Assembly (NCBI GenBank): GCA_012270965.1
Contig: JAAXHJ010000097.1
Location: forward strand, 1 to 64,000
Length of the DNA stretch: 64,000 bases
Direction of reading: 5' to 3'
Origin: Candidatus Palauibacter poriticola
Lineage (GTDB): Bacteria; Gemmatimonadota; Gemmatimonadetes; Palauibacterales; Palauibacteraceae
This document shows, in pieces, positions 7,104-29,325 of this stretch; the stretch's first letter is position 1; the number at the start of each line of letters is the position of its first letter. Made by a program: the position numbers and the translations under genes. The notes under the pieces are model-generated. The model was not told the DNA's origin and did no database searches. It worked only from the letters and a program-made list of their open reading frames with translations.

Positions 7104-7479
7104 CGCCGTCCTTGCCGCAACTGGCACCACCCGGGACCGGCCGCCATCGGTGAAGCGGCCTACGCGACGCCCCGAACCGGAGTTTCGCCGCGTACGGCCG
7201 CGCAAGCCGCCGGCGGCGGGCCATGATAACGCCGGGACACCCGCCACGGAACCCGCGGCACGCCCCTCCTCCCCGCATCGCACGTTCTCGAATGAGGTTC
7301 GGGTGTTTGCGCGTTCGGCTTGGGCATGGACGCTCCTTCCGGGGATGATCTCAAACTAGCGGCTCGAGCTACCTTACCAAGTCGCGGATGAGATCAACGG
7401 ATCGTCAACCGTACCGGTCTCGATTGAGGCCGTGGCTTCACCATGAGATACAACAGCACGGTCGCCAACGCGTCGGAGG
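7104..7479. other. spacer between the TonB receptor and the psp cluster
   Basis: No gene supported. The part nearest the psp cluster holds one copy of a dispersed repeat (about 7167-7238) and should include the psp promoter. The part near 7380-7479 is the 3' side of the TonB receptor gene. I see no convincing terminator hairpin with a T run. Confidence 0.6.
7167..7238. repeat. dispersed intergenic repeat, copy A
   Basis: Shares two conserved blocks, CCGGAGTTTC followed by CCGCG and then GCGGGCCATGAT...CGCCGGGACAC, with a second copy at about 13452-13520. Both copies are in the same orientation and both are non-coding, just upstream of a gene start on one strand or the other. Confidence 0.7.
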
Positions 7480-13168: not shown

Positions 13169-13553
13169 GTCCTCCGCCAGCCGGCGAGGGCCGCATGTCC
13201 TTCCGCGGGCCACCCATGTCCTCGCGCGGACCCTTGATCCCGCCGCCCAGCTCGGCTCGCGGATCCTTGATCTCGCCGCTCAGGTCGGCCGGCGGTCCCA
13301 AGCTCGCGGACTCCAACCTTCGCACGCGCTGACCCATCGCTCCTCATGGCCGCTTTCGCTCCGCCGGGCAGCCCGCAACAATTCGTCCACTCAGCGTTCC
13401 GCGGCCGTCGGCAGACCCTGGAACCCCGCCCGGCGAGCGTGCGTGGGACGACGCGAGCCGGAGTTTCTCCGCGGACAGCCACGCGTACGCGCCGCGGGCC
13501 ATGATGGCGCCGGGACACGCGTCGGGGAGGCGGCGCGATTCTATTATGAGGTA
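13169..13553. other. spacer before the integrase
   Basis: No gene supported. It contains imperfect internal repeats at about 13195-13300 (motifs around CGCGGACCCTTGAT and CGCGGATCCTTGAT) and copy B of the dispersed repeat at its right end. Confidence 0.5.
13452..13520. repeat. dispersed intergenic repeat, copy B
   Basis: Matches copy A at 7167-7238: GCCGGAGTTTC, CCGCGGAC, GCCACGCG and GCGGGCCATGATGGCGCC are in the same order and orientation with small gaps. It ends about 35 bp before the integrase start. Confidence 0.7.
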
Positions 13554-14786
13554 ATGAATGGCGTAACCCCCTCGCCCGTTCCGCCCCGAAGAACGAAGCC
13601 GAAGGGCCGTCATCCGGAAAGGGCGCTTTCGGCCACGTTCGTGCGCACGGCGCCGCCGGGCAGGTACTGCGACGGCAACGGGCTATACCTGTTCGTCCAG
13701 CGGAGCGGGGCCCGGAGCTGGGTCCAGCGCCTCGTCATCCGCGGGCGGCGCCGGGACTTCGGACTCGGCAGCGTCGCGCTGGTCTCGCTGGCCGAGGCCC
13801 GGGAGAAGGCGCGGGCGAACCGCAAGCTGGCCCGCGAGGGCGGCGACCCGCTGGTGGAGAGACGGCGGGCCCGGGGCGTGCCCAGCTTCGCCGAGGCGGC
13901 CGCGCGAGTCTTGGAGCAGAAGCGGGCCGGCTGGCGCAGCGAGAAGCACGGATGGGACTGGGTGTCGAGCCTCCAACGGTACGCCTTCCCGCGCATCGGC
14001 AAGATGGCGGTCTCGGATGTGACGAGCGCCGACGTGCTCGATGTCCTCTCCCCTATCTGGCACACGAAGGCGCCGACCGCCCGGTTCGTGTTTCAGCGAA
14101 TCCGCTCGGTGCTGGAATGGGCGGTGGCGATGGAGTTCCGTACCAGCAACCCCTGCGACCAGTTGCGGCCGGTGCTCGGCCCGCAACACCGCGTGGTACG
14201 GCACATGCGGGCCCTGCCGCACCGGGAGGTGGCATCGGCGATCGAGGCGGTGCGCGGATCGAGTCGGTCGTCCGCCGATCCGCTCGCGTTCGAGTTCCTG
14301 GTGCTGACGGCGGCGAGGTGGGGCGAGGTGCGGTGGGCCGAGTGGGCGGAAATCGATGATGACGCGGGGGTGTGGACGGTTCCCGCGACGCGCATGAAGG
14401 CGAAACGGGAGCATCGCGTGCCGCTGTGCCGCCGCGTCCTGGAAATCCTTGACCGGGCGCGAAGGCTTGGCGGTCGCAGTCCGTTGGTGTTCACCCGCGG
14501 CGGCGAGAAGCCGCTGCCGGAAAATGCGCTGCGCCGACTTCTTGGGAAGCAGGAGATCGCCGCCGTACCGCACGGCTTCCGGTCGAGCTTTCGGGACTGG
14601 GCGGCCGAGGAGACGGACCATCCCCGCGAGGTGGTCGAGGCGGCCCTGGCGCACGTGGTCCAGAACAAGGTCGAGGCGGCCTACAGGCGCACGGACCTGT
14701 TCGAGCGGCGGCGCTACCTCATGAACGACTGGGCTGGCTACCTGGCCGACCGACCCGATGCCGGGATGTGGGATCGAATGAGGTAA
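13554..14786 (+). CDS. P4-type tyrosine recombinase (integrase)
   Basis: Site-specific recombinase of the DUF4102 / phage P4 integrase class, about 410 residues. Seen: N-terminal arm-type domain (YCDGNGLYLFVQRSGARSW), SAM-like core-binding region, and the catalytic set: Arg in TAARWGEVRW, Lys in MKAKREHRVPL, His and Arg in HGFRSSFRDW, His in ALAHVVQNK, and Tyr in EAAYRRTDLF. All are intact, so the enzyme could be active. The ATG at 13554 fits the family N-terminus; the frame is open 37 codons further up. No tRNA target flanks it. The gene ends 56 bp before the truncated surface-protein gene. Confidence 0.92.
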   Translation: MNGVTPSPVPPRRTKPKGRHPERALSATFVRTAPPGRYCDGNGLYLFVQRSGARSWVQRLVIRGRRRDFGLGSVALVSLAEAREKARANRKLAREGGDPLVERRRARGVPSFAEAAARVLEQKRAGWRSEKHGWDWVSSLQRYAFPRIGKMAVSDVTSADVLDVLSPIWHTKAPTARFVFQRIRSVLEWAVAMEFRTSNPCDQLRPVLGPQHRVVRHMRALPHREVASAIEAVRGSSRSSADPLAFEFLVLTAARWGEVRWAEWAEIDDDAGVWTVPATRMKAKREHRVPLCRRVLEILDRARRLGGRSPLVFTRGGEKPLPENALRRLLGKQEIAAVPHGFRSSFRDWAAEETDHPREVVEAALAHVVQNKVEAAYRRTDLFERRRYLMNDWAGYLADRPDAGMWDRMR

Positions 14787-14818
14787 CGGGTGCAAGAGTC
14801 CAATCAACAACCCATGTA

Positions 14819-14838
14819 TTATCAGTAAGTTATGATAA
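14819..14838. other. short inverted repeat, possible recombinase core site
   Basis: TTATCAGTAAGTTATGATAA: 6-bp arms TTATCA/TGATAA around an 8-bp spacer, AT-rich in a GC-rich region, lying between the integrase stop and the point where surface-protein homology begins (14843). Such core layouts are typical of tyrosine recombinase crossover sites; assignment is inference. Confidence 0.4.
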
Positions 14839-14842
14839 TCTT

Positions 14843-17800
14843 GCCGTTGTCACCGTCACAGCGTCCGACGGCGAGGCCACGGCGACTCAGGGCTTCACGG
14901 TCACCGTGAGCGACCCGTCGGGGAAGGCGGCCACGGTGGCGCTGTTCGGTCTGCGCTCGGTGACGGACCGCAGCGTGTCGATCGACCCGACGAACGTGTC
15001 GGGCGGCATCTCGGTGATCTTGGACGTGCAGCCCAACGACGAGACGGTGGCGGCGATCGCGCTCACGCTCGACGGTGAGACGATCCAGTGCCGCGGCTCC
15101 TCGAGCGACGCGGATCCGGCGGCGGGCCTCGCGGCGTCGTCGCAGGCGGAGGTCGACTGCTTCCTCAACACGGCCGCCGTGATGGGCGAGTGCGCGGGGA
15201 TGCAGCTCGATCCGATGTATGCCAACGGCGAGCACGAACTCGGGGCGTTCATCACGACGGCCGAGGGCGAGCGCCGCGACGTGGTGGCGGCGCAGCCGAT
15301 CACGCTGAACAACTCGGGCTACGTGATGGTTTCGCACAGCCCCGGCAGCGCGTCGGCCGTGGTGAAGGGCTACCAGTTCTACGGCGGTCCCGCCGGCGAC
15401 GACATGGGCAACACGAACTCCTTCCACGCCTGCCCGGTGTCGTACAAGGGCACCACGGTCGCCGAGCTCGGGCTCATGGCGAAGGTCACCGGACTCGGCG
15501 GCGCCGACCTTGGCGACGCGGCGCCCGATGCGGTGACGCTCGCGCAGGAAAAGGGCGCGTTCACCTGGACCGTCAACACGGCCAAGAGTTCGATGGTCGA
15601 GAACCAGGCCGGCATGGATGAGCACTGGATCATCAACAGCGGTCCCATCCACGACGCCGACGGGCTGCTGGTGACGGACGAGTTCCGGGGCGAGGAGGCG
15701 GCGAAGACCGGCCCGCTCCACTTCGACTTCAAGGCTCCGACGACGGCGGAAGGCGAGATTAAGGTCAACAAGGGCTCCGTGGTCGCGGGCACGTCGTACT
15801 CGGCCAACGCGAAGAACGCCGTCGCCCTTGCCGGCGCTGCGGACATGGGCGTGGGCGTGGACCCCGCGTCGATCATGATCGCGGTGGGCGACTGTTCGGC
15901 CCCGGCCAACAACGTCGACGTTGCCGCCGCGATGATGCCCAACCGGACGAAGGTTCCCTTCGCCGCCGCCTACGACGGCGTGATCCACATCTCCGACTTG
16001 GAGGAGGAGGATGCGGGCCGCGATGGACCGGGTGAGGACGACAACGGGCTCGACTGCTACGTGGCCGAGCTGACCGCGCTGGCCGACGAGCTGGGCAACG
16101 CGTGGATGGGCGGTAAGGCGCCCGCGTCCTGGCTGCAGACGGCCAACTTCGGCGTCGACAAGACCGCGCCGGCGCTGAGCGACATCGAGCCCGAGTCGGG
16201 TCTGGTGTTCAAGGCTCTACCCACCATGACGTTCGAGGTCGACAATCCGGATCTCGCCTCGGGCGACGACGGCACCCCGCTCACCGGCACGGTGAAGAGC
16301 GGCAAGTTAGGCGCCGGCACGGTCTCAATTACCGGCCGCGATGGTGTGGTCACGCTCAGCGGATCTACTTTTGCTAAGGACGGCAGGAAGACGGTCAGCG
16401 TCACGGTCTCCGACGGGGCCGAGCCGACCAACAACGCCGGGTACTCGTTGTCCTTCGCCTACGACACGAAACCACCGACGTTCTCGCTCAGCCGGACCCA
16501 GCCGGACCTGAGCCCGGGCGGTGCGTCCTCGGTTACGGTGTCGGTGGAGGGTTCGATCTCCGACGCGAGCGAGATCAAAGAGGCGACTCTGTTGCTCCTC
16601 AAGGCCGCCGACTGCTCGAGTGCGCCTGCGGTCAAGGACACCCTGAAAAAGTGGGATCTGGAGAACGGGACGAACTCGGTCCCGATCAACAACAGCTTCG
16701 TCATTGAGGCTACCGGCACCGGTCCGGAGGACTATTGCTTCCACCTCGATGCCGAGGATGTCGCCGTTGGAGCGGACACCAAAGGCGACGGCAACGCCCT
16801 TGTCAACGGGGACTTGGGCAGCTTCAACGTGGCATGGTCCGGCGAACCGCCGAAGCCGGGTCCGACGTTCGACTTCTCGACGAGAACGGACAACACCGAC
16901 CCAGCGACGTGGATGAAGGCCGATACGCTGGGTATCACCGAAGGCGACGAAAAAACCACATACTGGGTTGCGCTGAAGGATGCGGACGCGGAGCCAACGT
17001 CGGATGCCCCCGTCAGCGTAAGCATCACCGGTGAGGCCGGGGTAAGCGTGAATCCCTCGACGCTGGAGTTCGACGGGACTGCGGACACCCTGGAGGTGAC
17101 GGTCACCGTCGAACACGACACCGATATCGATTCGGAGTATCTCGATCTGACTCACAAGGCTGAAGGCTTTGGCGGCGGGGAGCTTGTGGTGCAGGCGCTT
17201 GACGACGATTTCGAGATCATGGTGTCCCCGACGTCGATACGTGAGGATGACGACGCCGAGGAGGCGGAGGTTACCGTGTCCGCCGGGCTGGGGGCGGACA
17301 TTACAGACCCGGTAATGGTGACATTGGGTCGCGGGGACGGTGCCGACGACAGTGACATCGCAAGCGGGAGCGCGAAGACGACCGCAGTGACGGTCAAGGA
17401 GGCGACGGCCGATGCGCCGCGGATGGGGGTGACTACGGTCATGGTGGATGCGGCCGACGACACCGAGCAGGACGAGGTGAACGAGTCGATCGAACTGACC
17501 GTGTCGGCCAGCGCCACCGCCGGCGTGTACTACAAGCCCGCCAGCATCGCGATCATTGACGACGATCCCGACATCACGTTGTCGTTGAGCCAGGAGAAGG
17601 TGAACGAGGGTGAGGGCACCGTGACGGTTACGATCACGGCGACGGCGGACGCGCCGGTGCTTGGGATCGTGAACCTCTCCCTCACCTTTGGCGGGACGGC
17701 AACGCCCGAAGACTACACCGCCAGTCCGACGCCGCTGACGGTGACGATCGACACGGGGGGCGAGACGGCGACGGCGACGGTGACGATCACGATCACCGAC

Positions 17801-17923
17801 GACGACGGAGAGGAGGGCAATGAGACGATCGTGTTCTCGGGTCCGACGAGCGCCGAAGCCGGAGGCAAGATGTACTCGACCGGCTCCGCGACGCTGACGA
17901 TCGTGGACAACGACGGCTCGTAA
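14843..17923 (+). pseudogene. 5'-truncated Calx-beta surface protein (silent copy)
   Basis: An uninterrupted 1027-codon frame homologous to the lipoprotein at 22483-25908 but lacking its signal peptide, lipobox, proline tract and first Ig-like domains. Homology begins sharply at 14843 with a 483-bp block (14843-15325) about 92% identical to the inverted block 24763-25245. After that the two diverge but keep landmarks (ANFGVDKTAP, CPVSYKGTTV). The C-terminal third has three Calx-beta-like repeats (SIREDDDAEE, VNEGEGTVTV, VDNDGS). An in-frame GTG at 14768 within the integrase could add 25 residues but no export signal. The open frame without decay suggests retention, perhaps as a recombination donor. 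Confidence 0.75.
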
Positions 17924-17961
17924 ACCCCGACGGTCGGTCTCCGACGAGAGGCCCAACGGAA

Positions 17962-18002
17962 GCGGGCCCCCGCGAAGTCTGCGGGGGCCCGCTTCTTTTT
18001 TT
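17962..18002 (+). terminator. rho-independent terminator
   Basis: A 12-bp GC stem (GCGGGCCCCCGC / GCGGGGGCCCGC) with a 7-base loop followed by TTCTTTTTTT, 38 bp after the stop of the truncated surface-protein gene. Confidence 0.9.
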
Positions 18003-18412: not shown

Positions 18413-18660
18413 CTTGCTCCGGTCGCCGTCGATCCGGTGTCCCGAGCGCTCGATGAACGCCAGCTTCTTGATGTCCATGTGCGCCGGAGGCCCCGGCCGC
18501 AACCGTTCGCACCGCACCGCGGGCTCCGGAGGCGCCGGCTTCTCCAACGGGTTAGGTTCGAACCCTCCCACCCCGGCGTCACCGTCGAGACCGGCATCCC
18601 CAGGTGATCCGCAATCCGCGTGCAGCTCCACCGCCGTCGTCTCAGCCGCTTCGGGGCGAC
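18413..18660 (-). mobile_element. IS481-family transposase remnant, frameshifted
   Basis: In one frame (18544-18650) the minus strand reads RLRRRRWSCTRIADHLGMP, the helix-turn-helix start of IS481 transposases. In the next frame (18413-18556) it continues with RCERLRPGPPAHMDIKKLA and then RSGHRIDGDR, matching the RPGELIHIDIKKL...GHRITGD region before the first catalytic Asp. The frameshift lies near 18550. Everything downstream of this point (the DDE core) is absent. Confidence 0.7.
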
Positions 18661-18664
18661 CTCC

Positions 18665-19163
18665 GGTACGGGGCTTTCCGTCCTGGAACCTTCTTCCGTC
18701 GTACACGTCCCGCAGCAACTCCGGGGGCGTTGAGCTTCCCGAACCGCTTCTCGGCCACCATCAACAGCCGCCAGATGAGCGCCGTGGCGTTGTCCACCCG
18801 CTTGAACCGCTTCGCCGCCGTCGTGCGCAGCCGGACCGAGGCGAACGGGCTCTCCACCACGTTCGTCGTCCGCAGGTGCCGCCAGTGCTTCTCGGGGAGG
18901 GCGTAGAAGGCCATAGTCCGCTCCCAGTCGTCGCCGAGCACCGCCACCGCCTTGGAGTGCCCATCTCCGTAGCGGTTCGCGAACGCGTCGCGCGCCCGCT
19001 CGGCCGCCGCCCGCGAGGGCGCGTACGCCACCGCCCGCAGCATCTCCCGCGCCACCGTCTGCTCCCTCTTGGGCAGCCGGTCCAGCACGTTGGCCATCTT
19101 GTGGTTCCAGCACCGCTGCTCGGCCACCGCCGGCCACACCTCCCACGCCGGCCTCACGCGCAC
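18665..19163 (-). mobile_element. IS256-family transposase fragment
   Basis: The C-terminal part of an IS256/mutator-type transposase: QRCWNHKMANVLDRLPK, HWRHLRTTNVVESPFASVR and NATALIWRLLMVAEKRFGKL, all family signatures. The N-terminal DNA-binding part and first catalytic Asp residues are missing. A run of five Cs at 18723-18727 shifts the frame: after NAP the expected continuation PELLRDVYDGRRFQDG is found in the next frame. The IS481 piece abuts its 3' end. Confidence 0.85.
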
Positions 19164-19861: not shown

Positions 19862-20211
19862 CGGCGACATGAACGATCTGGTCGTTCAGATAGGGATGGG
19901 CGCGAACCTTGTCATGGAATCTCGTGTCGGCCGTCACGACCGGGTGCTGCTCCGGTATGGCCGGCGAGACGCATGGGCACCGGCGTCGCCACCGGTGCAT
20001 CGCGAAGCAGGTCCACGGCGGCCGCGAGCTGCGGGCGGTCGATGTCGCCGCGCTGGCGCATGGCCCACAGCGCGTTGGCCGCCTCGGCAAACATCAGTTC
20101 GGGCGCCAGCAGGGTAACGCCCGTCACGAGCAGCTTCTCCGATTCGGCAGAGAGGTGCTCCGACACCAGCCACTTCACGGCCACGCTGGCGTCGACCACA
20201 TAGCCTCTCAA
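19862..20211 (-). pseudogene. vapC: VapC-type PIN-domain toxin, internally deleted
   Basis: A PIN-domain ribonuclease toxin gene beginning at TTG 20211, which overlaps the antitoxin stop as TTGA. Residues YVVDASVAVKWLV carry the first catalytic Asp and ELMFAEAANALW the conserved Glu. After PVPMRLAG the reading frame is lost; the expected end, VVTADTRFHDKV, appears in another frame. The stretch between (normally about 25-30 residues with the central catalytic Asp, as in YDCLYLALAE) is missing. The toxin should be inactive. Confidence 0.75.
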
Positions 20212-20444
20212 CCGGATCCGTCCCGGTCCCGGTCGGCCCGGATCGTGTCGACACTGTCGACCGACGACCGCAGGTGACTTCTCAGCTTCCGCGCGCGGTC
20301 CGCGAACGCCGCGCCTTCGGCGAGCAGGGCGTCGCGAAGAATCGCCCGGTGCTCGGCTTCGGCGGACCGTCGATTGGCGGCCGCCCGGCGCCGGAGCGCG
20401 TCGACCACCTGCGCGGTCACGTTGCGGACCGTGAGTTGCGCCAC
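20208..20444 (-). CDS. vapB: VapB/FitA-like antitoxin
   Basis: Ribbon-helix-helix antitoxin, about 78 residues: AQLTVRNVTAQVVDALRRRA, then SAEAEHRAILRDALL, the Arc-like fold that binds the operator and masks the toxin. GTG at 20444 is preferred over the ATG at 20459 because GGGGGAGGA lies directly before the GTG. The reading frame is intact although the toxin it controls is broken, so it is now an orphan antitoxin, perhaps still repressing its own promoter. Confidence 0.8.
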   Translation of the reverse strand: MAQLTVRNVTAQVVDALRRRAAANRRSAEAEHRAILRDALLAEGAAFADRARKLRSHLRSSVDSVDTIRADRDRDGSG

Positions 20445-20484
20445 CGCTCCTCCCCCCATCTTGTGGTGCCTTCAATGACAGCAG

Positions 20485-20512: not shown

Positions 20513-20674
20513 TCCCTCAAATGGGCCTCGCTTCCCGTACGGACCTCCGCACCCGTGGGTGTCCAACGCGACGCTGGCGTGCAGTGCCTCCAATAATGTT
20601 GTTCATCCAGCTGCGCGAGGAGGACGGCGTCGAGCCCACGCCGGATACCGGCACCGATCCGGCCTGACCGCTGA

Positions 20675-20827
20675 TCACGCGCCCCACACGGTGATGGGCG
20701 TGCCGTTCCGGCACCGGTCCCTCCCGTAGATCTTCTCCGCCCACGTCCTGCCGCCGCGCATGTCGAAGACGACGAGGTGGCCCGCGTCGGCGTTGCAGAG
20801 ATCCATGTACGCGGCCGTCTGTTCGAG
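20675..20827 (-). pseudogene. rearranged ATPase/nuclease gene, C-terminal piece
   Basis: Minus-strand reading gives LEQTAAYMDLCNADAGHLVV, then FDMRGGRTWAEKIYGRDR and ends ITVWGA with TGA at 20675. This is the normal C-terminus of the AAA ATPase plus PD-(D/E)XK family whose centre lies inverted at 20827-22017 and whose N-terminus is at 22020-22265. Confidence 0.75.
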
Positions 20828-22017
20828 CGGACGTGGGCCGAGCAATGGGGGCGGTCGCCACGGAGATCGCCCACGAGGCCGAGGACACGCTGAACGATCC
20901 GGCCACGGCCGAGGCGGCGCGGCGCCTCGACACCGCTGGACGTCCCGACGTCGCGCTGGGAACGCTGCTGCGGCTGTGGGCGAAGACGTCCACCGCGCCG
21001 CTGGTGCTGCTGATCGACGAAATCGACGCGCTCGTCGGCGATTCGCTGGTTTCGGTGCTGCGGCAACTCCGGGCGGGCTACGCCCACCGCCCGGCCGCGT
21101 TCCCCCAAAGCGTGGTGCTGTGCGGCGTGCGGGACGTGCGCGACTACCGGATTCACGCCGGCTCCGGGCGGGAAGTGATCACCGGGGGCAGCGCCTTCAA
21201 CATCAAGGCCCGCTCCCTCCGCTTGGGCGACTTCACGCGAACGGAGGTCGAAGCCCTGCTGGGGCAGCACACGGTCGAATCGGGCCAAGGCTTCTCCGCG
21301 GAGGCGCTGCAAGCGGTGTGGGAACAGACGCGCGGCCAGCCCTGGCTCGTGAACGCCCTCGCGCGGGAGATATGCTTTCCGGCCGAGGCGCTCCGTCCGC
21401 CCGGTCGTCCCATCTCCGAGAAGGACGTCTTCGAGGCGCGGGAGGCGCTGATCCTGAGCCGCGAAACGCACTTGGACCAATTGGCCGACAAGCTGCGCGA
21501 GCCTCGCGTGCGCCGGGTGATCGAACCGCTGCTCAGCGGGGGCGACGCGGCGTATTCCGACCGGGACTTCGAGTACGCACGCGATCTTGGACTGGTCGCG
21601 CCCGATCCGCCGCTCCGTATCGCCAACCCCATCTACGGCGAAGTGCTTCCCCGGGAACTGACATAGGTACTTGAGCAAGCGATGCCGCGGCGGCGGGCGG
21701 CATGGTACATTGATGCGGACGGTCGTCTGAACATGGACAAGCTGCTGGCCGCGTTCCAGGATTTCTTTCGGCGGAAATCGGAGCACTGGGTGGAGCGGGC
21801 CCAGTACACGGAGGCGGGTCCTCAACTCGTACTGCAGGCGTTTTTGCACCGGGTCGTGAACGGACGGGGCCGAATCGAGCGGGAATACGCGCTGGGGAGC
21901 CGCCGCGTGGACCTGCTGGTCGTCTGGCCGGGCGGGCGGGGGCGCGATGCCCGGTTCGTCGTCGAGTGCAAGCTGTTGAAGAATGGCCGCTCACACGCCG
22001 GGATCGTCGAGCGGGGG
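20827..22017 (+). pseudogene. rearranged ATPase/nuclease gene, inverted central piece
   Basis: Plus-strand frame of 397 codons: ADVGRAMGAVATEIAHEAED, Walker B VLLIDEID, arginine-rich sensor region, then RVDLLVVWPG and FVVECKLLK of a PD-(D/E)XK nuclease core. It lacks Walker A and both ends, which are found on the other strand on either side. A TAG at 21664-21666 interrupts the frame after PRELT, where family members are expected to read on; translation resumes in the same frame (VLEQAMPRRRAAWYI). Joining the three pieces restores a 530-codon gene. Confidence 0.8.
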
Positions 22018-22019
22018 TC

Positions 22020-22265
22020 GCGGGCGGTTTGCGCGGACTCGACGTTAACGTACCCGCAGCGGTACTCGCCCGCGGTCCCGCCGTTCAGCAGGTCGCGCAG
22101 CGCCAGCAGCGCGGAAGTCTTCCCCGTCTGACGGGGAGCGTGCAGGACGAAGTAGGCCTTGGAGCGGATGAGGTCCATCACGCCGGCCAGGCTGACCCGG
22201 TCCAGCGGAGGAACGAAGTAGTGCTCATCCGGCCGGACGGGGCCGGCGGTGTTGAATCGGCGCAT
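22020..22265 (-). pseudogene. rearranged ATPase/nuclease gene, N-terminal piece
   Basis: ATG at 22265; MRRFNTAGPVRPDEHYFVPP followed by Walker A HAPRQTGKTSALLALRDLL and CGYVNVESAQTAR. After that Arg the homology stops at the inversion breakpoint and continues at 20827 on the other strand. Related proteins start the same way and bind ATP through this P-loop. Confidence 0.8.
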
Positions 22266-22395
22266 GTCCGAACATCGCCTCGCCTGCGGGGGGACGCAAT
22301 CAGGCGCACGGGGGCGGGGGGGTCTGAACCGGGCGGAAGCGTCCGGGTCGGGCGGCCGCCGAAGGGAAGAGTGTGAATCAATGGATCACGGCGAC

Positions 22396-22482: not shown

Positions 22483-25400
22483 CTACTGTTTATCGTCGTC
22501 GACAATGGTGATGGTAATGCCGGCGGTCGGCAGTCCGCGGCCACCCGACACCGCCAGCGTAACCACGATGGCGTCGTCCTCGTCGTCATCGTCGTTCTTC
22601 TCGCCCTCACCCTGAACGGCGGTGATGGCGACCTTGATGCTGGCCGTCGTCTTGTCCGCCGCGAACGCGATCTCCTCCGGGTCGACCCCCTCAGCGCCCG
22701 CCGCGACCGTGAACTCGTCCTCGGCCGTTCCCGCGGCCGTGCCGCCCGTGTAGACCACCGGAACGGTCACCGCACCAGACGCCTGGGCGCGCGTGGCCGT
22801 GATCGTGACGGTGTCCGTCGTGCCCTCCGTGATCGACACGTCGTCGATCGCAAGGAGGACATCGGGATCCTCCGAGGTCACCTTGACGGACGCGCTGCGG
22901 CCATCGTACCCGCCGCCGGATGCGGTCGCCTTCAAGGTGGCCAGCTCGCCCTGCGCGTTGTCGTCCTCGGGGGCCGTGACCGTCACGTTCTGCTTGGTGT
23001 CGAAATTGGCGGGCGTGAACGTCAGCGTCGTATCCGCCTCGATGCTCTTCGCGCGGCTTCCCGTGATCTTCACCGTGACGTCGGCGGTGGGCCGCTCGCT
23101 GAGGGTGACCTCGAGGGTGGCGTCGTCCCCCTCGTTGATCGATCCCGCCATGCCGTCGGCCGTCACCAGGCTGCCCCCGAGGACCACCGCGGCGGCGCTG
23201 CTCCAGTTGACCGCGAACACGGCGACCGAGAACTCCCTGCCGTTGCCCCCGCCGCCGGTCGCGTCGGTGGCCTGAAGCAGGACGCACAGCTCCTCGGTCG
23301 TCGTGTCAGCAACGGCCGGCCGGCCCAGCGTCAGCGTCCGGTCGATGGACAACGACTTCGCGCCGCCGACCTTCCGGGCCCCGTACCTGCCCCCCCGGGC
23401 GGTCGGAAGCGAGTCGTCCGCCGCCTCGCAGAACGCCGGCGCGTTGTCCGACCGCTTGCTGCTGTCGTTGTTGCGGACGGTCAGGGTGTAGCTCTCGATG
23501 CCGGCCGTGGCGTCCTTCAGCACGCCCGACACGTCGATGCCCACGCTCTCCGCGCCCGAAAGCGTGCCGACGGGTCCGCCGCCCGAGAAGGTCGGAGCCG
23601 TCGTGTCGTAGACAAGGTCCCGCGTGAACGAGCTGCGGTTGGGCGGCGTCGCGGCATCGCTCATCGTCACCGTCACGGTGTACGCGCCGTCCTTCGTTAG
23701 GCCGCTAACCGTGGCGGTCGCGTCGTCGTCCTCCGCCTCGTTGTAGGCCACGGACCCGGCGGATACCGGGGCCTTGCCGCCCGGCGGGGGCGGAATCGTA
23801 ACGGTCCCCGTCACCGCCGTGCCCGCGTCGCCCGATGCGAGCTTCGGGTTCTGGACCTCGAACTCGATGGTCGGAGCCGTTTTGAAGGCCATGGAGCCGT
23901 CGAACTCGATGTCCTCGATCACCGGCGGGGTCTTGTCGACGCCGAAGTTGGCCGTCTGACCCCAGCTCCCCGGAGTCGCGCCGCCGCTCCACGCGTTGCC
24001 CAGAAGGTCCGCGCCCGCGCCGATCTCGGCGACGTAGCAGTCCAGACCGTTGCTGTCCGTCTGGCCGAGGCCGGCCCGCGACGCATCCTCCTCGGCCAGC
24101 TCGGAGATGTGCGCGACGTCCGTGTACGCGGCGTTGAAGCCGACCTTCGTCCGGTCGACCTTCGACGTCCTGTTGGCCGCGCAGTCGCCCACGTCGACCC
24201 GCGTCATCGCCTTGTCGAGACCCACCCCGTCATCGGCCAGATCGGTCGAGAAGGCGTTGGCCTTCGCGGCCGAGTACGACGCGCCCGCCGAGACCGCGGC
24301 CTTGTTGATCATCACGGAGCCGCCGGTGGGCGCCTTGAAGTCGAAGTGGAACGGGCCCGCCTTGGCGTACGCCCCGTCGGCCACGAACTCGTCCGTCACG
24401 AGCAGGCCGCCGTCATCCTTGATGTCGCCCGTGTTGGCGACCCAGTACTCGTCGTCGGCCGTGTTCGAGACGGTCGCGTTGAAGTCGGAATCGGCCGTCC
24501 AGGTGAAGGGCGGAGCCTCGAGCGTCGGCGACGGATCGTTGTCCGGAGCCTTCGAGCCGGTCTGGAAGCTCAGATCCGGGCCCTCCGCGGATTCGCCGTC
24601 GGCGTCCGTCAGCATCGCCGCGAGGGTGAGCTCGCCCACCGTCGTCCCCTCGTAGGACACCGGGCAGGCGCTGAACGAGTTCGTGTTGCCGTCGCCCGTG
24701 GGCCCGCCGTGGTACGTGCGGCCCCCGTGGGCCACCGAGCGCCCCGCGTGGTGAACGATCTTCACGTAGCCCGAGTTGTTCAGCGTGATCGGCTGCGCCG
24801 CCACCACGTCCCGGCGCTCGCCCTCGGCCGTCGTGATGAACGCCCCCAGCTCGTGCGTCCCGTTCGCGTACATCGGATCGAGCTGCGTCCCCATGCACTC
24901 GCCCACCACCGCGGCCGTGTTGAGGAAGCAGTCGACCTCCGCCTGCGACGACGCCGCGAGGCCCGCCGCCGGATCCGCGTCGCTCGAGGAGCCGCGGCAC
25001 TGGATCGTCTCACCGTCCAAAGTGAGCGCGATCGCCGCCACCGTCTCGTCGTTCGGCTGCACGTCCAGAATCACCGAGATGGGGCCCGACACGTTCGTCG
25101 GGTTGACCGACGTGCTCCGGTCCGCCACGTCGCGCAGGCCGAAGATCGCCACCGTCGCCGCCTTCCCCGACGGGTCGCTCACGGTGACCGTGAAGCCCTG
25201 AGTCGCCGCGGCCTCGCCGTCGCTCGCTGTGACGGTGACAACGGCCTCGCCCTCGGCCACACCCGTGATGGTCGCGCTCGAACCCTCCATCGAAACGGTC
25301 GCCACCTCGGCGTTCGAACTCGCGGCGGCGTAGCTGAGCTCATCGCCATCCGCGTCGCTGAAGTAGCCCGCGACATCGATCGTCGACGCAGCGCCGACGT

Positions 25401-25908
25401 TAATGGTGTGCGCCGGAATGGTGCTCACCGCGGCGGGCGGGTTGTTGGCGGGCTCCGCCTCGACCGTGACGGTGAAGCCCTGCGCGGCGGCGGCCCCGTC
25501 CGGGTCCGTCGCCGTGATCGTGATGACCGCGGTTCCGGCCGCCACGCCCGTGATGGTCGCAACCGCGCCTTCCATCGCGACCGTGGCGTTGGCGGGGCTC
25601 GAGGAGCCGGCGCTGTAGGTCAGCGCGTCGCCGTCGGGATCCGCGAAGTAGCCCGTCGCGTCGACCGACACCGTGCCACCCATGGCCACATTGTGGGCCG
25701 GAATGGTACCGCGAGCCTCGGGCGCCTGGTTGACCGGCGGCGGCGGCGGTGGCGGCGGCGGCGGTGGTGGCGGCGGCGGCGGCGGCGGTGGAATTACGAT
25801 GGGCGGAATGTCCGGGAACGGCGGCGTGACGACCTCCACGGTGTCTCCGCAGCCGCCGATGGTCAGGACCGCCCCGACCGTCAACAGCCTCTTGGTACCC
25901 TTCTTCAT
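22483..25908 (-). CDS. large Ig-like / Calx-beta surface lipoprotein
   Basis: 1141 residues, predicted outer-surface lipoprotein. Seen: signal peptide with lipobox IGGC (Cys about residue 20), a linker with an unbroken run of about 18 prolines, two Ig/cadherin-like repeats (GYFADPDGDALTYS and GYFSDADGDELSYA), then a Cys-containing conserved module (residues about 222-382, encoded by 24763-25245), a variable centre (CPVSYEGTTV, ANFGVDKTPP), and C-terminal Calx-beta-like repeats (SINEGDDATLEV, SITEGTTDTV) that usually bind calcium. The ATG has GAGGAGG five bases upstream. Adhesion is a family-level expectation. The homologous truncated copy is at 14843-17923. Confidence 0.85.
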   Translation of the reverse strand: MKKGTKRLLTVGAVLTIGGCGDTVEVVTPPFPDIPPIVIPPPPPPPPPPPPPPPPPPPVNQAPEARGTIPAHNVAMGGTVSVDATGYFADPDGDALTYSAGSSSPANATVAMEGAVATITGVAAGTAVITITATDPDGAAAAQGFTVTVEAEPANNPPAAVSTIPAHTINVGAASTIDVAGYFSDADGDELSYAAASSNAEVATVSMEGSSATITGVAEGEAVVTVTASDGEAAATQGFTVTVSDPSGKAATVAIFGLRDVADRSTSVNPTNVSGPISVILDVQPNDETVAAIALTLDGETIQCRGSSSDADPAAGLAASSQAEVDCFLNTAAVVGECMGTQLDPMYANGTHELGAFITTAEGERRDVVAAQPITLNNSGYVKIVHHAGRSVAHGGRTYHGGPTGDGNTNSFSACPVSYEGTTVGELTLAAMLTDADGESAEGPDLSFQTGSKAPDNDPSPTLEAPPFTWTADSDFNATVSNTADDEYWVANTGDIKDDGGLLVTDEFVADGAYAKAGPFHFDFKAPTGGSVMINKAAVSAGASYSAAKANAFSTDLADDGVGLDKAMTRVDVGDCAANRTSKVDRTKVGFNAAYTDVAHISELAEEDASRAGLGQTDSNGLDCYVAEIGAGADLLGNAWSGGATPGSWGQTANFGVDKTPPVIEDIEFDGSMAFKTAPTIEFEVQNPKLASGDAGTAVTGTVTIPPPPGGKAPVSAGSVAYNEAEDDDATATVSGLTKDGAYTVTVTMSDAATPPNRSSFTRDLVYDTTAPTFSGGGPVGTLSGAESVGIDVSGVLKDATAGIESYTLTVRNNDSSKRSDNAPAFCEAADDSLPTARGGRYGARKVGGAKSLSIDRTLTLGRPAVADTTTEELCVLLQATDATGGGGNGREFSVAVFAVNWSSAAAVVLGGSLVTADGMAGSINEGDDATLEVTLSERPTADVTVKITGSRAKSIEADTTLTFTPANFDTKQNVTVTAPEDDNAQGELATLKATASGGGYDGRSASVKVTSEDPDVLLAIDDVSITEGTTDTVTITATRAQASGAVTVPVVYTGGTAAGTAEDEFTVAAGAEGVDPEEIAFAADKTTASIKVAITAVQGEGEKNDDDDEDDAIVVTLAVSGGRGLPTAGITITIVDDDKQ
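25735..25792. repeat. GGC/GGT tract coding poly-proline
   Basis: About 19 consecutive GGN triplets (minus strand CCN) encode the proline run after the lipobox of the surface lipoprotein. Low-complexity triplets of this type change length by slippage, and any non-multiple-of-three change would shut off the gene. Confidence 0.85.
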
Positions 25909-26307: not shown

Positions 26308-29300
26308 TCACACGGCCAGGGTTCCGCTCGGCTTCCGGCTCGATTCCCGCAGGAGCGAGGCGAGGTGCCGCCCGGTGTGGCTGCCGGGCGTCGCGGCCAC
26401 GAGTTCCGGGGGCCCCTCGGCAACGACGAGGCCGCCTCCGGCTCCCCCCTCCGGGCCCATGTCGACGACCCAGTCCGCCGTCTTCACGACGTCCATGTGG
26501 TGCTCGATGACGATGATCGTGTTGCCGCGGCCGGCGAGCCTGTGGAGGACGCGGAGGAGGAGGCGCACGTCCTCGAAGTGGAGACCGGTGGTGGGCTCGT
26601 CAAGGATGTAGACGGTGCGGCCGGTGCTCGTCTTCGCGAGTTCGGTGGCGAGTTTCACCCGCTGGGCCTCGCCGCCGGAGAGGGTGGTGGCGGGCTGGCC
26701 CAGCGTCACGTAGCCGAGGCCGACATCGGAGAGCGTGTCCAGGCGGCGCCTCACCGACGGCACGGCGTCGAAGAACTCGAGCGCCTCGTCCACGCTCATC
26801 GCGAGCACGTCGGCGATGCTCCGTCCCCGGTAGAGGACCTCGAGCGTCTCGCGGTTGTAGCGCCGTCCCCGGCAGATGTCGCAGGGGACGTACACGTCGG
26901 GCAGAAAGTGCATCTCGATCTTCACGAGGCCGTCGCCGCGGCAGGGTTCGCAGCGCCCGCCCTTCACGTTGAAGCTGAACCGCCCCGGCGCGTAGCCGCG
27001 GATGTTCGACTCGGGCAGGCGGGCGAAGAGTTCGCGGATGGGGGTGAAGAGGCCCGTATAGGTGGCCGGGTTCGAGCGCGGAGTGCGGCCGATGGGGCTC
27101 TGGTCGACGTCGATGACCTTGTCGAGGAGTTCGATGCCCTCGACCGCGTCGTGCGCGCCGGGGACGAGCTTCGAGCGGTAGATCTCGCGCGCCAGGCGGC
27201 GGTAGAGGATCTGCTCGACGAGGGTGGACTTGCCGGAGCCGGACACGCCCGTGACGCAGATGAAAGTCCCCAGCGGGAACTCGATGTCGATTGCCCGCAG
27301 GTTGTGCTCGCGGGCGCCGCGCACGACGAGCCGGCCGTTGTCGGGGGGGCGGCGCCGTGCGGGGACGGGGATCTCGCGCTCGCCCCGAAGGTAGGCGGCG
27401 GTGAGCGAACGGTCGTCCGCCAGGAGCCGGTCGATGTCGCCCGAGACGACGACTTCCCCGCCCTCGCGCCCGGCCCCCGGTCCCATGTCGACGATGTGGT
27501 CGGCGCGGCGGATCGTGAGTTCGTCGTGCTCGACCACGAGGACGGTGTTCCCGAGGTCGCGCAGGGCGCCGAGCGTCTGCAGCAGCTTGCGGTTGTCGCG
27601 CGGGTGGAGGCCGATGCTGGGTTCGTCGAGCACGTAGAGGACACCGACGAGGCGGCTCCCGATCTGGGTCGCGAGGCGGATGCGCTGCGCCTCGCCGCCT
27701 GAAAGCGTGCCGGCGGAACGCGCCAGGGTGAGGTAGCCGAGCCCCACGTGGTCGAGGAACTCGAGCCGCTCGACGACCTCCTTTAGGATGGGGACGCGGA
27801 TCTCGGCCGTCTGGCCGGCGGCGGCGCGGGCGCGCTCGAGCCAGCCGCCGAGGAGCGGTCGCAGTTCGGCCACCGACTGCCCGGTGAGCGCGGGGAGGGA
27901 GAGCCCCTCCAGCGTGACGGCCCGGCTCTCGGGGCGCAGCCGTCCGCCCTCGCAGGCGAGGCAGGTGGAGAGCGTCATGTACTCCTCGAGCGAGAGGCGC
28001 ACGCGCTCGCTCGTCGTCTCGTGGTAGCGGCGCAGCGTGGCGGCAACCGCTCCCTCCCACCCCACGTCGGTGTCGCCATAGAGGATCGCCTCCCGCTGGT
28101 CCCCGTTCAGGTCGCCCCAGACGGTGTTGAGGTCGAAGTCCATCTTGCGCGCGAGCCGGGCGAGGGCGTGGCGGCGGGCGCCCCAGCTCGGCGTCCCCAG
28201 GGGAAGGAGGACGCCCTCGAGGATGGAGATCCGGTCTCCGCCCACGATGAGGTCGGCGTTCGGGACGCGCTGGGAGCCGAGCCCGTCACACTCCGGACAG
28301 GCGCCGAACGGAGAGTTGAAGGAGAACTGCCGCGGCTCGAGTTCCGGCATGCCGAGCCCGCATCCCGGACAGGCGTACCGCTCGCTGAACAGGTGCCGCG
28401 TCTCTCCGCTATCCTCCGCGCCGTCGTCCGTTCCGCCCGCGCCGTCGTCCGTTCCGCCCGCGCCGGCGGCCCTGTTGGCACCCCCGCCGGCGACCCTTTG
28501 GGTGCTCCCACCCCCGTCGCCGGCCCGCCCCTCGCCCCCGTCGGCGCCATTGCGCAGGGCGACCTCGACGACGCCGTCGGCCATGCGAAGGGCGGTCGCC
28601 ACGGAGTCCGCCAGCCGCTCACGGTCCGAGGCGCGCACGACGAGCCGGTCCACGACGACCGAAATGTCGTGGTTGCGGCGCCGGTTCAGAAGGGGCGGGT
28701 CGGAGAGGTCGACGAGTTCGCCGTCCACGCGGGCGCGCACGAAGCCCTGGCTCAGCGTGCGCTCGAACAGGTCGCGGAACTCCCCCTTCCGTCCCCTCAC
28801 GAGCGGAGCGCGAACCTCGATGCGGGCGCCGGCGGGCCAGCCGAGAATCTGCTGCGCGATCTCCGACGGCGATTGCGGGCGCACCGGGCGGCCGCAGGAG
28901 GGACAGTGGGGGGTGCCGGCGCGGGCCCACAGGAGCCGAAGGTAGTCGTAGATCTCGGTGACGGTGCCGACGGTGGAGCGCGGGTTGCCGCCCGCCGTGC
29001 GCTGCTCGATCGCGATGGCGGGCGAGAGTCCCTCGATGACGTCGACGTCCGGCTTCTCCATGACGCCGAGGAACTGCCGCGCGTAGGCGGAGAGGGATTC
29101 GACGTAGCGGCGCTGCCCCTCCGCGTAGATGGTGTCGAAGGCGAGCGAGGACTTGCCGGAGCCGGAGAGTCCCGTGACGACGATGAGCCGGTCGCGCGGC
29201 AGCTCGACGTCCACGTCGCGGAGGTTGTGCTCCCGCGCCCCCCGCACGATGAGGGCGCCGCCGCCGGTCGAGCCGGCGCCTTCGACGCCGCCCGGGTCGG

Positions 29301-29325
29301 CGCCGGTTGGGTTCGAGTTCCTCAT
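26308..29325 (-). CDS. uvrA: excinuclease ABC subunit A
   Basis: Damage-recognition ATPase of nucleotide-excision repair, acting with UvrB and UvrC. Seen: first Walker [11 protein letters not shown] (51-60), second [10 protein letters not shown] near 690, zinc pairs CPGC/CPEC and CEPC/CDIC, and two ABC signatures LSGGEAQR. Length 1005 exceeds the usual 940-960 mainly because of a Gly/Asp/Ala-rich insert of about 45 residues near residues 255-305, just before the first zinc pair; it contains the repeat GGTDDGA twice. ATG at 29325. It is not followed by other repair genes here. Confidence 0.97.

Follow-up and report, generated by a model that had tools for sequence, protein, structure and literature searches.

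A gene in the window (the whole stretch of 64,000 nucleotides of Candidatus Palauibacter poriticola DNA that we analyzed) is broken into three pieces. The N-terminal piece lies on the minus strand, the center is flipped to the plus strand, and the C-terminal piece lies on the minus strand again. In relatives the corresponding sequence is one collinear gene of 529 amino acids. Our preferred explanation, to which we give a probability of about 0.8, is that the center of a dispensable gene, often present in multiple copies, was recently inverted in a single event of illegitimate end joining, and that the gene also suffered a nonsense mutation.

One gene in three pieces

The pieces, the nonsense codon and the joins are given below, where L002 is the locus of the best-matching intact gene.

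22018..22265, minus strand: N-terminal piece with the start codon and the Walker A motif APRQTGKTS; corresponds to L002 residues 1-82 at ~85-87% nucleotide identity
20829..22017, plus strand, opposite to its flanks: inverted central piece of 1189 bp with the Walker B motif LVLLIDEID and a PD-(D/E)XK-like VDLL...VECK
20675..20828, minus strand: C-terminal piece ending in TGA; 85.2% identity to L002
21664..21666, plus strand: in-frame TAG that replaces a conserved Trp codon (residue 361)
20828..20829: left breakpoint, CTGTTCGAGC joined to GGACGTGGGC
22017..22018: right breakpoint, TCGAGCGGGGG joined to TCGCGGGC, with at most one extra G

The N-terminal piece translates as MRRFNTAGP...VESAQTAR (minus strand, 22265-22020) and the C-terminal piece as LEQTAAYMD...TVWGA followed by the stop (minus strand, 20827-20675). 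The central piece reads on the plus strand from 20827/20829; its nucleotide identity is 85.4% to L002 and 86.3% to a second intact copy, L027. When L002 is aligned to the window with blastn, three abutting pieces emerge:

L002 1496-1650, plus: window 20673-20827, 85.2% identity
L002 1652-2839, minus: window 22016-20829, 85.4% identity
L002 2840-3150, plus: window 22018-22322, 84.9% identity

This three-piece match is far beyond chance: each piece matches the intact protein of one genome with E ≤7e-30, and the joins are exact. The alignment confirms the original prediction of a single gene with an inverted interior. Its coordinates and codon-precise joins hold with refinements of 1-2 bases, and its count of 530 codons for the restored gene agrees with the intact homolog (529 amino acids plus stop). 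The coding capacity is lost, as Walker A is cut off from the remaining gene and the center contains the TAG at 21664.

The assembly is a draft with 99 contigs, in which the flip could have arisen as an artefact of assembly or amplification and not exist in the cell. We regard this as distinctly unlikely. Short-read assemblers join sequences on extended exact overlaps, whereas the break sites have runs of just ~4 nt in common, and an artefact would take two independent false joins placed such that no base was lost. Furthermore, a search of the window's own genome at a threshold of E 0.001 turned up no second copy of the central piece, and the TAG is independent evidence that the gene is dead. 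The inversion is probably not an assembly artefact.

Intact relatives

The three translated pieces were searched against the window's own genome and 149 related genomes. Matches occur in 20 of the 149, many with full-length, unbroken genes of 525-541 residues. The best match, from the same genus (L002, in G002:C45), has 86% amino acid identity across all 528 query residues. L027 (JAJDVI010000006.1), from a public acidobacterial MAG, is 84% identical at the amino acid level. Related strains had been named in the original prediction as the place to look for an intact gene, and an intact, collinear gene is indeed present in G002, L027 and other species. Since the window aligns plus/minus/plus to the intact L002, the flip is the derived state of the window and not of the relatives.

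Several relatives carry multiple copies, some of them decayed, with 7 matches in G079 and 11 in G142. The window locus and G002 have only the gene and ~57 bp upstream in common. Hence the gene family moves or is transferred.

One relic, L020 (G099:C1, 1340-1695), has an N-terminal ATPase piece on the minus strand and a central piece on the plus strand, and could stem from a second inversion or from several copies. We did not count it as a second inverted case, because its N-terminal piece runs into an apparent C-terminal tail and another tail lies upstream. The relic may consist of remnants of several copies.

The breakpoints

When the pieces are rejoined and placed in a multiple alignment with 12 relatives, they abut within 1-2 bases at both joins. 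No base is lost, and at most one G is added at the right join.

At the ancestral right join, the residues VERGLEQ are encoded by TCGAGC-GGGG-GCTCGA-like DNA. In the ancestor the right break fell within the loop of this small palindrome (TCGAGC-GGGG-GCTCGA); one arm went with the flipped center and the other stayed with the C-terminal piece. The motif TCGAGCGG is present at both ends because the break split one ancestral palindrome into its two arms. For this reason we rejected the TCGAGCGG motifs as microhomology that guided the inversion. The original prediction was right that the breakpoints lack long inverted repeats, but the common motifs it pointed to are arms of the split palindrome. No inverted repeats beyond chance were found at the two ends of the segment. 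In inverted register, the longest run common to the two ancestral break sites is 4 nt; 73% of randomly chosen position pairs from the gene have a run at least as long.

Repeats are central to a second possible explanation, an intragenic inverton, in which a recombinase flips a segment back and forth and thereby switches the gene on and off. Intragenic invertons were reportedly described by Chanin et al. 2024 (doi 10.1038/s41586-024-07970-4, cited in PMC11868660). The window case resembles them in that a DNA segment is reversed inside one coding sequence, and candidate enzymes exist: an integrase gene (13443-14786, with Arm-DNA-bind, Phage_int_M and Phage_integrase domains) is 6 kb away, and the genome has ~10 tyrosine-recombinase matches. 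However, invertons are recognized by flanking inverted repeats and are reversible, whereas such repeats are missing from the window's breakpoints and flipping the center back would not revive the gene, which the TAG kills in either orientation. No recombination sites for the genome's tyrosine recombinases are visible at the breaks, no serine recombinase was found in the window's genome, and the full-length relatives are all in a single orientation. An on/off switch of this kind is therefore very unlikely.

A third explanation replaces end joining with template switching during replication, with a fold-back at a quasi-palindrome. Two features would fit: the position of the ancestral right break in the palindrome loop, and an inverted match of 13 out of 14 bases that begins exactly at the left break. 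This match pairs the first 14 bases of the flipped center (20829-20842) with 20735-20748, and no other pair of this kind occurs in 1.8 kb. A fold-back copy should match exactly, however, and this pair has a mismatch; a span of 1.2 kb with both ends restored would also require two coordinated switches. We give the match little weight because it was spotted after the fact and because synonymous differences from the relatives at third positions account for the window's bases there. It may be a coincidence or a hint of template switching, which we consider unlikely overall.

The amber codon and the age of the pseudogene

All 12 homologs compared have TGG at codon 361, where the window has TAG. The stop at 21664 that had been reported for both the central piece and the restored gene is thus real and in frame. 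In a gene call based on codon composition, 45 window genes end in TAG (12), TGA (31) or TAA (2). With 12 of these 45 genes ending in TAG, this codon most likely acts as an ordinary stop in the genome. We rejected recoding on this count and because the codon is TGG in relatives; judged from these sequences, it is unlikely. The original description of the gene as dead in both orientations unless recoded stands accordingly.

Until recently the copy was under normal constraint. Pairwise Ka/Ks is 0.168 between the window and L002 and 0.187 between L002 and L027. The window branch has 54.5 synonymous and 20.5 non-synonymous changes of its own, compared to 59.5 and 22.5 for the intact L002, a nearly identical ratio. 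The Poisson bound on the neutral share of the window branch is at most ~6% if the L002 ratio is used, and ~9% with a lower assumed ratio. Both the inversion and the TAG are recent on that scale, and the window copy is a very young pseudogene.

The gene family

From its sequence, the gene product appears to be an AAA-type P-loop ATPase with a putative C-terminal PD-(D/E)XK-like nuclease domain. Walker A (APRQTGKTS), Walker B (LLIDEID) and the D...ExK pattern (D444, E462, K464) are invariant in 18 homologs. AAA_22 (PF13401) exceeds the Pfam cut-off in intact homologs (27.6 bits in P0003 against a cut-off of 27, and 36.3 bits in P0005). PDDEXK_9 (PF08011) scores below its cut-off (16.2 against 25.5 bits). 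Hence, of the earlier name "ATPase/nuclease", the first half is supported and the second weakly supported, by the invariant D...ExK pattern and a match below the cut-off.

Known P-loop ATPases with PD-(D/E)XK-like domains (Pfam AAA_22/AAA_16, AAA-ATPase_like plus PDDEXK_9) resemble the family in the Walker A and B motifs, the D...ExK pattern and the occurrence in multi-copy genomes. Compared to such fusions, the window family's nuclease domain falls below the Pfam cut-off. The PADLOC and NCBIfam models gave no match to the gene product, and so no defense-system identity. Structure prediction yielded a modest model (pLDDT 75.5, pTM 0.46). In the PDB it comes closest to Walker-type ATPases such as 2qen; the TM-scores are low, and the model adds little beyond the ATPase call.

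Genomic surroundings

A conserved block (window 1.4-7.3 kb, collinear in G001) lies on one side of the gene and uvrA on the other, and the stretch between the two is variable. This stretch contains an integrase, two convergent surface-protein genes, a transposase fragment and a toxin-antitoxin-like pair. It is the sort of place where dispensable genes gather and decay.

Several other features were observed here. The convergent surface-protein genes are Ig/Calx-like (14768-17923, plus strand; 22483-25908, minus strand). Their 5' parts form an inverted repeat with 74% identity over 1.5 kb and 90-94% over ~400 bp (14888-15288), and their 3' parts differ. The 3' part of the uvrA-linked copy in G001 and G002 resembles that of the window's other copy (17444-17999), and comparison of these sequences suggests an exchange of C-terminal parts. 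A third paralog in the window's genome (G000:C82:15731-18898) is 46% identical and has two in-frame TAA codons.

The integrase gene (plus strand, with an Arm-DNA-bind_3/Phage_int_M/Phage_integrase arrangement) abuts the surface-protein gene at 14768, and its 5' part (13567-13825) has an 85% match at the corresponding place in G001. The transposase fragment is of the Mutator family (18642-19163, minus strand), and at 19915-20459 (minus strand) a FitA-like antitoxin is followed by a weak PIN-domain match. An element of ~110 bp, 84-85% identical, occurs at window 7301-7409, L002 168-278 and L027 9573-9683, three unrelated contexts near surface-protein genes or ATPase copies. Alignments of uvrA (26308-29325, minus strand) to those of other genus members break at query ~800-930, where the window's UvrA has a low-complexity Gly/Asp-rich insert.

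Proposed mechanism

Two breaks and rejoining in inverse order by end joining are the simplest fit to the observations. The gene, which other species from its genus and class also carry, would have broken at two points 1189 bp apart. The released piece of 1189 bp would then have been rejoined backwards by non-homologous end joining (NHEJ), without a dedicated recombinase or guiding repeats. The nonsense change from Trp361 to TAG could have occurred before or after the inversion. Such an event would be one-off and irreversible, and the gene would be dispensable.

Candidate enzymes are encoded in the window's genome. A Ku gene (G000:C98:50890-51384, E 1e-41) is adjoined, on the other strand, by LigD with phosphoesterase, ligase and primase-polymerase domains. 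Ku and LigD may have made the joins; their role is circumstantial. Conventional NHEJ is enriched in Acidobacteria (PMC7719229).

When ~983 kb of the window's genome were compared with ~962 kb of relatives (~199 kb alignable), the known flip was recovered and no further small inversions were found. Alternatively, the flip could be a reversible intragenic switch operated by an unrecognized, repeat-independent recombinase, or the gene family could be a hotspot of end-joining inversion. We consider either extremely unlikely. If one of them were true, the scrambled L020 relic in G099 would be a second case.

The inversion places the window gene among the pseudogenes produced by rearrangement. The usual causes of pseudogenes are frameshifts, deletions and insertion sequences. 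The window gene resembles other bacterial rearrangement pseudogenes in being a single-copy remnant with intact, collinear relatives, a broken frame and a nonsense codon. It differs from the usual ones in its lesion, a clean internal inversion in which nothing was lost.

Implications

Our literature searches found papers on invertons and on bacterial NHEJ, none of which reports the window's inversion. An inversion pseudogene is a known kind of event, an ordinary gene loss, and alone it alters no picture. The window provides a clean and dated instance of gene loss through repeat-free inversion, in a bacterium with Ku and LigD genes. Automatic annotation splits such inversions into unrelated short ORFs and therefore hides this type of mutation. 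The case could be used as a test of how frequently end-joining inversions occur in NHEJ-positive bacteria.
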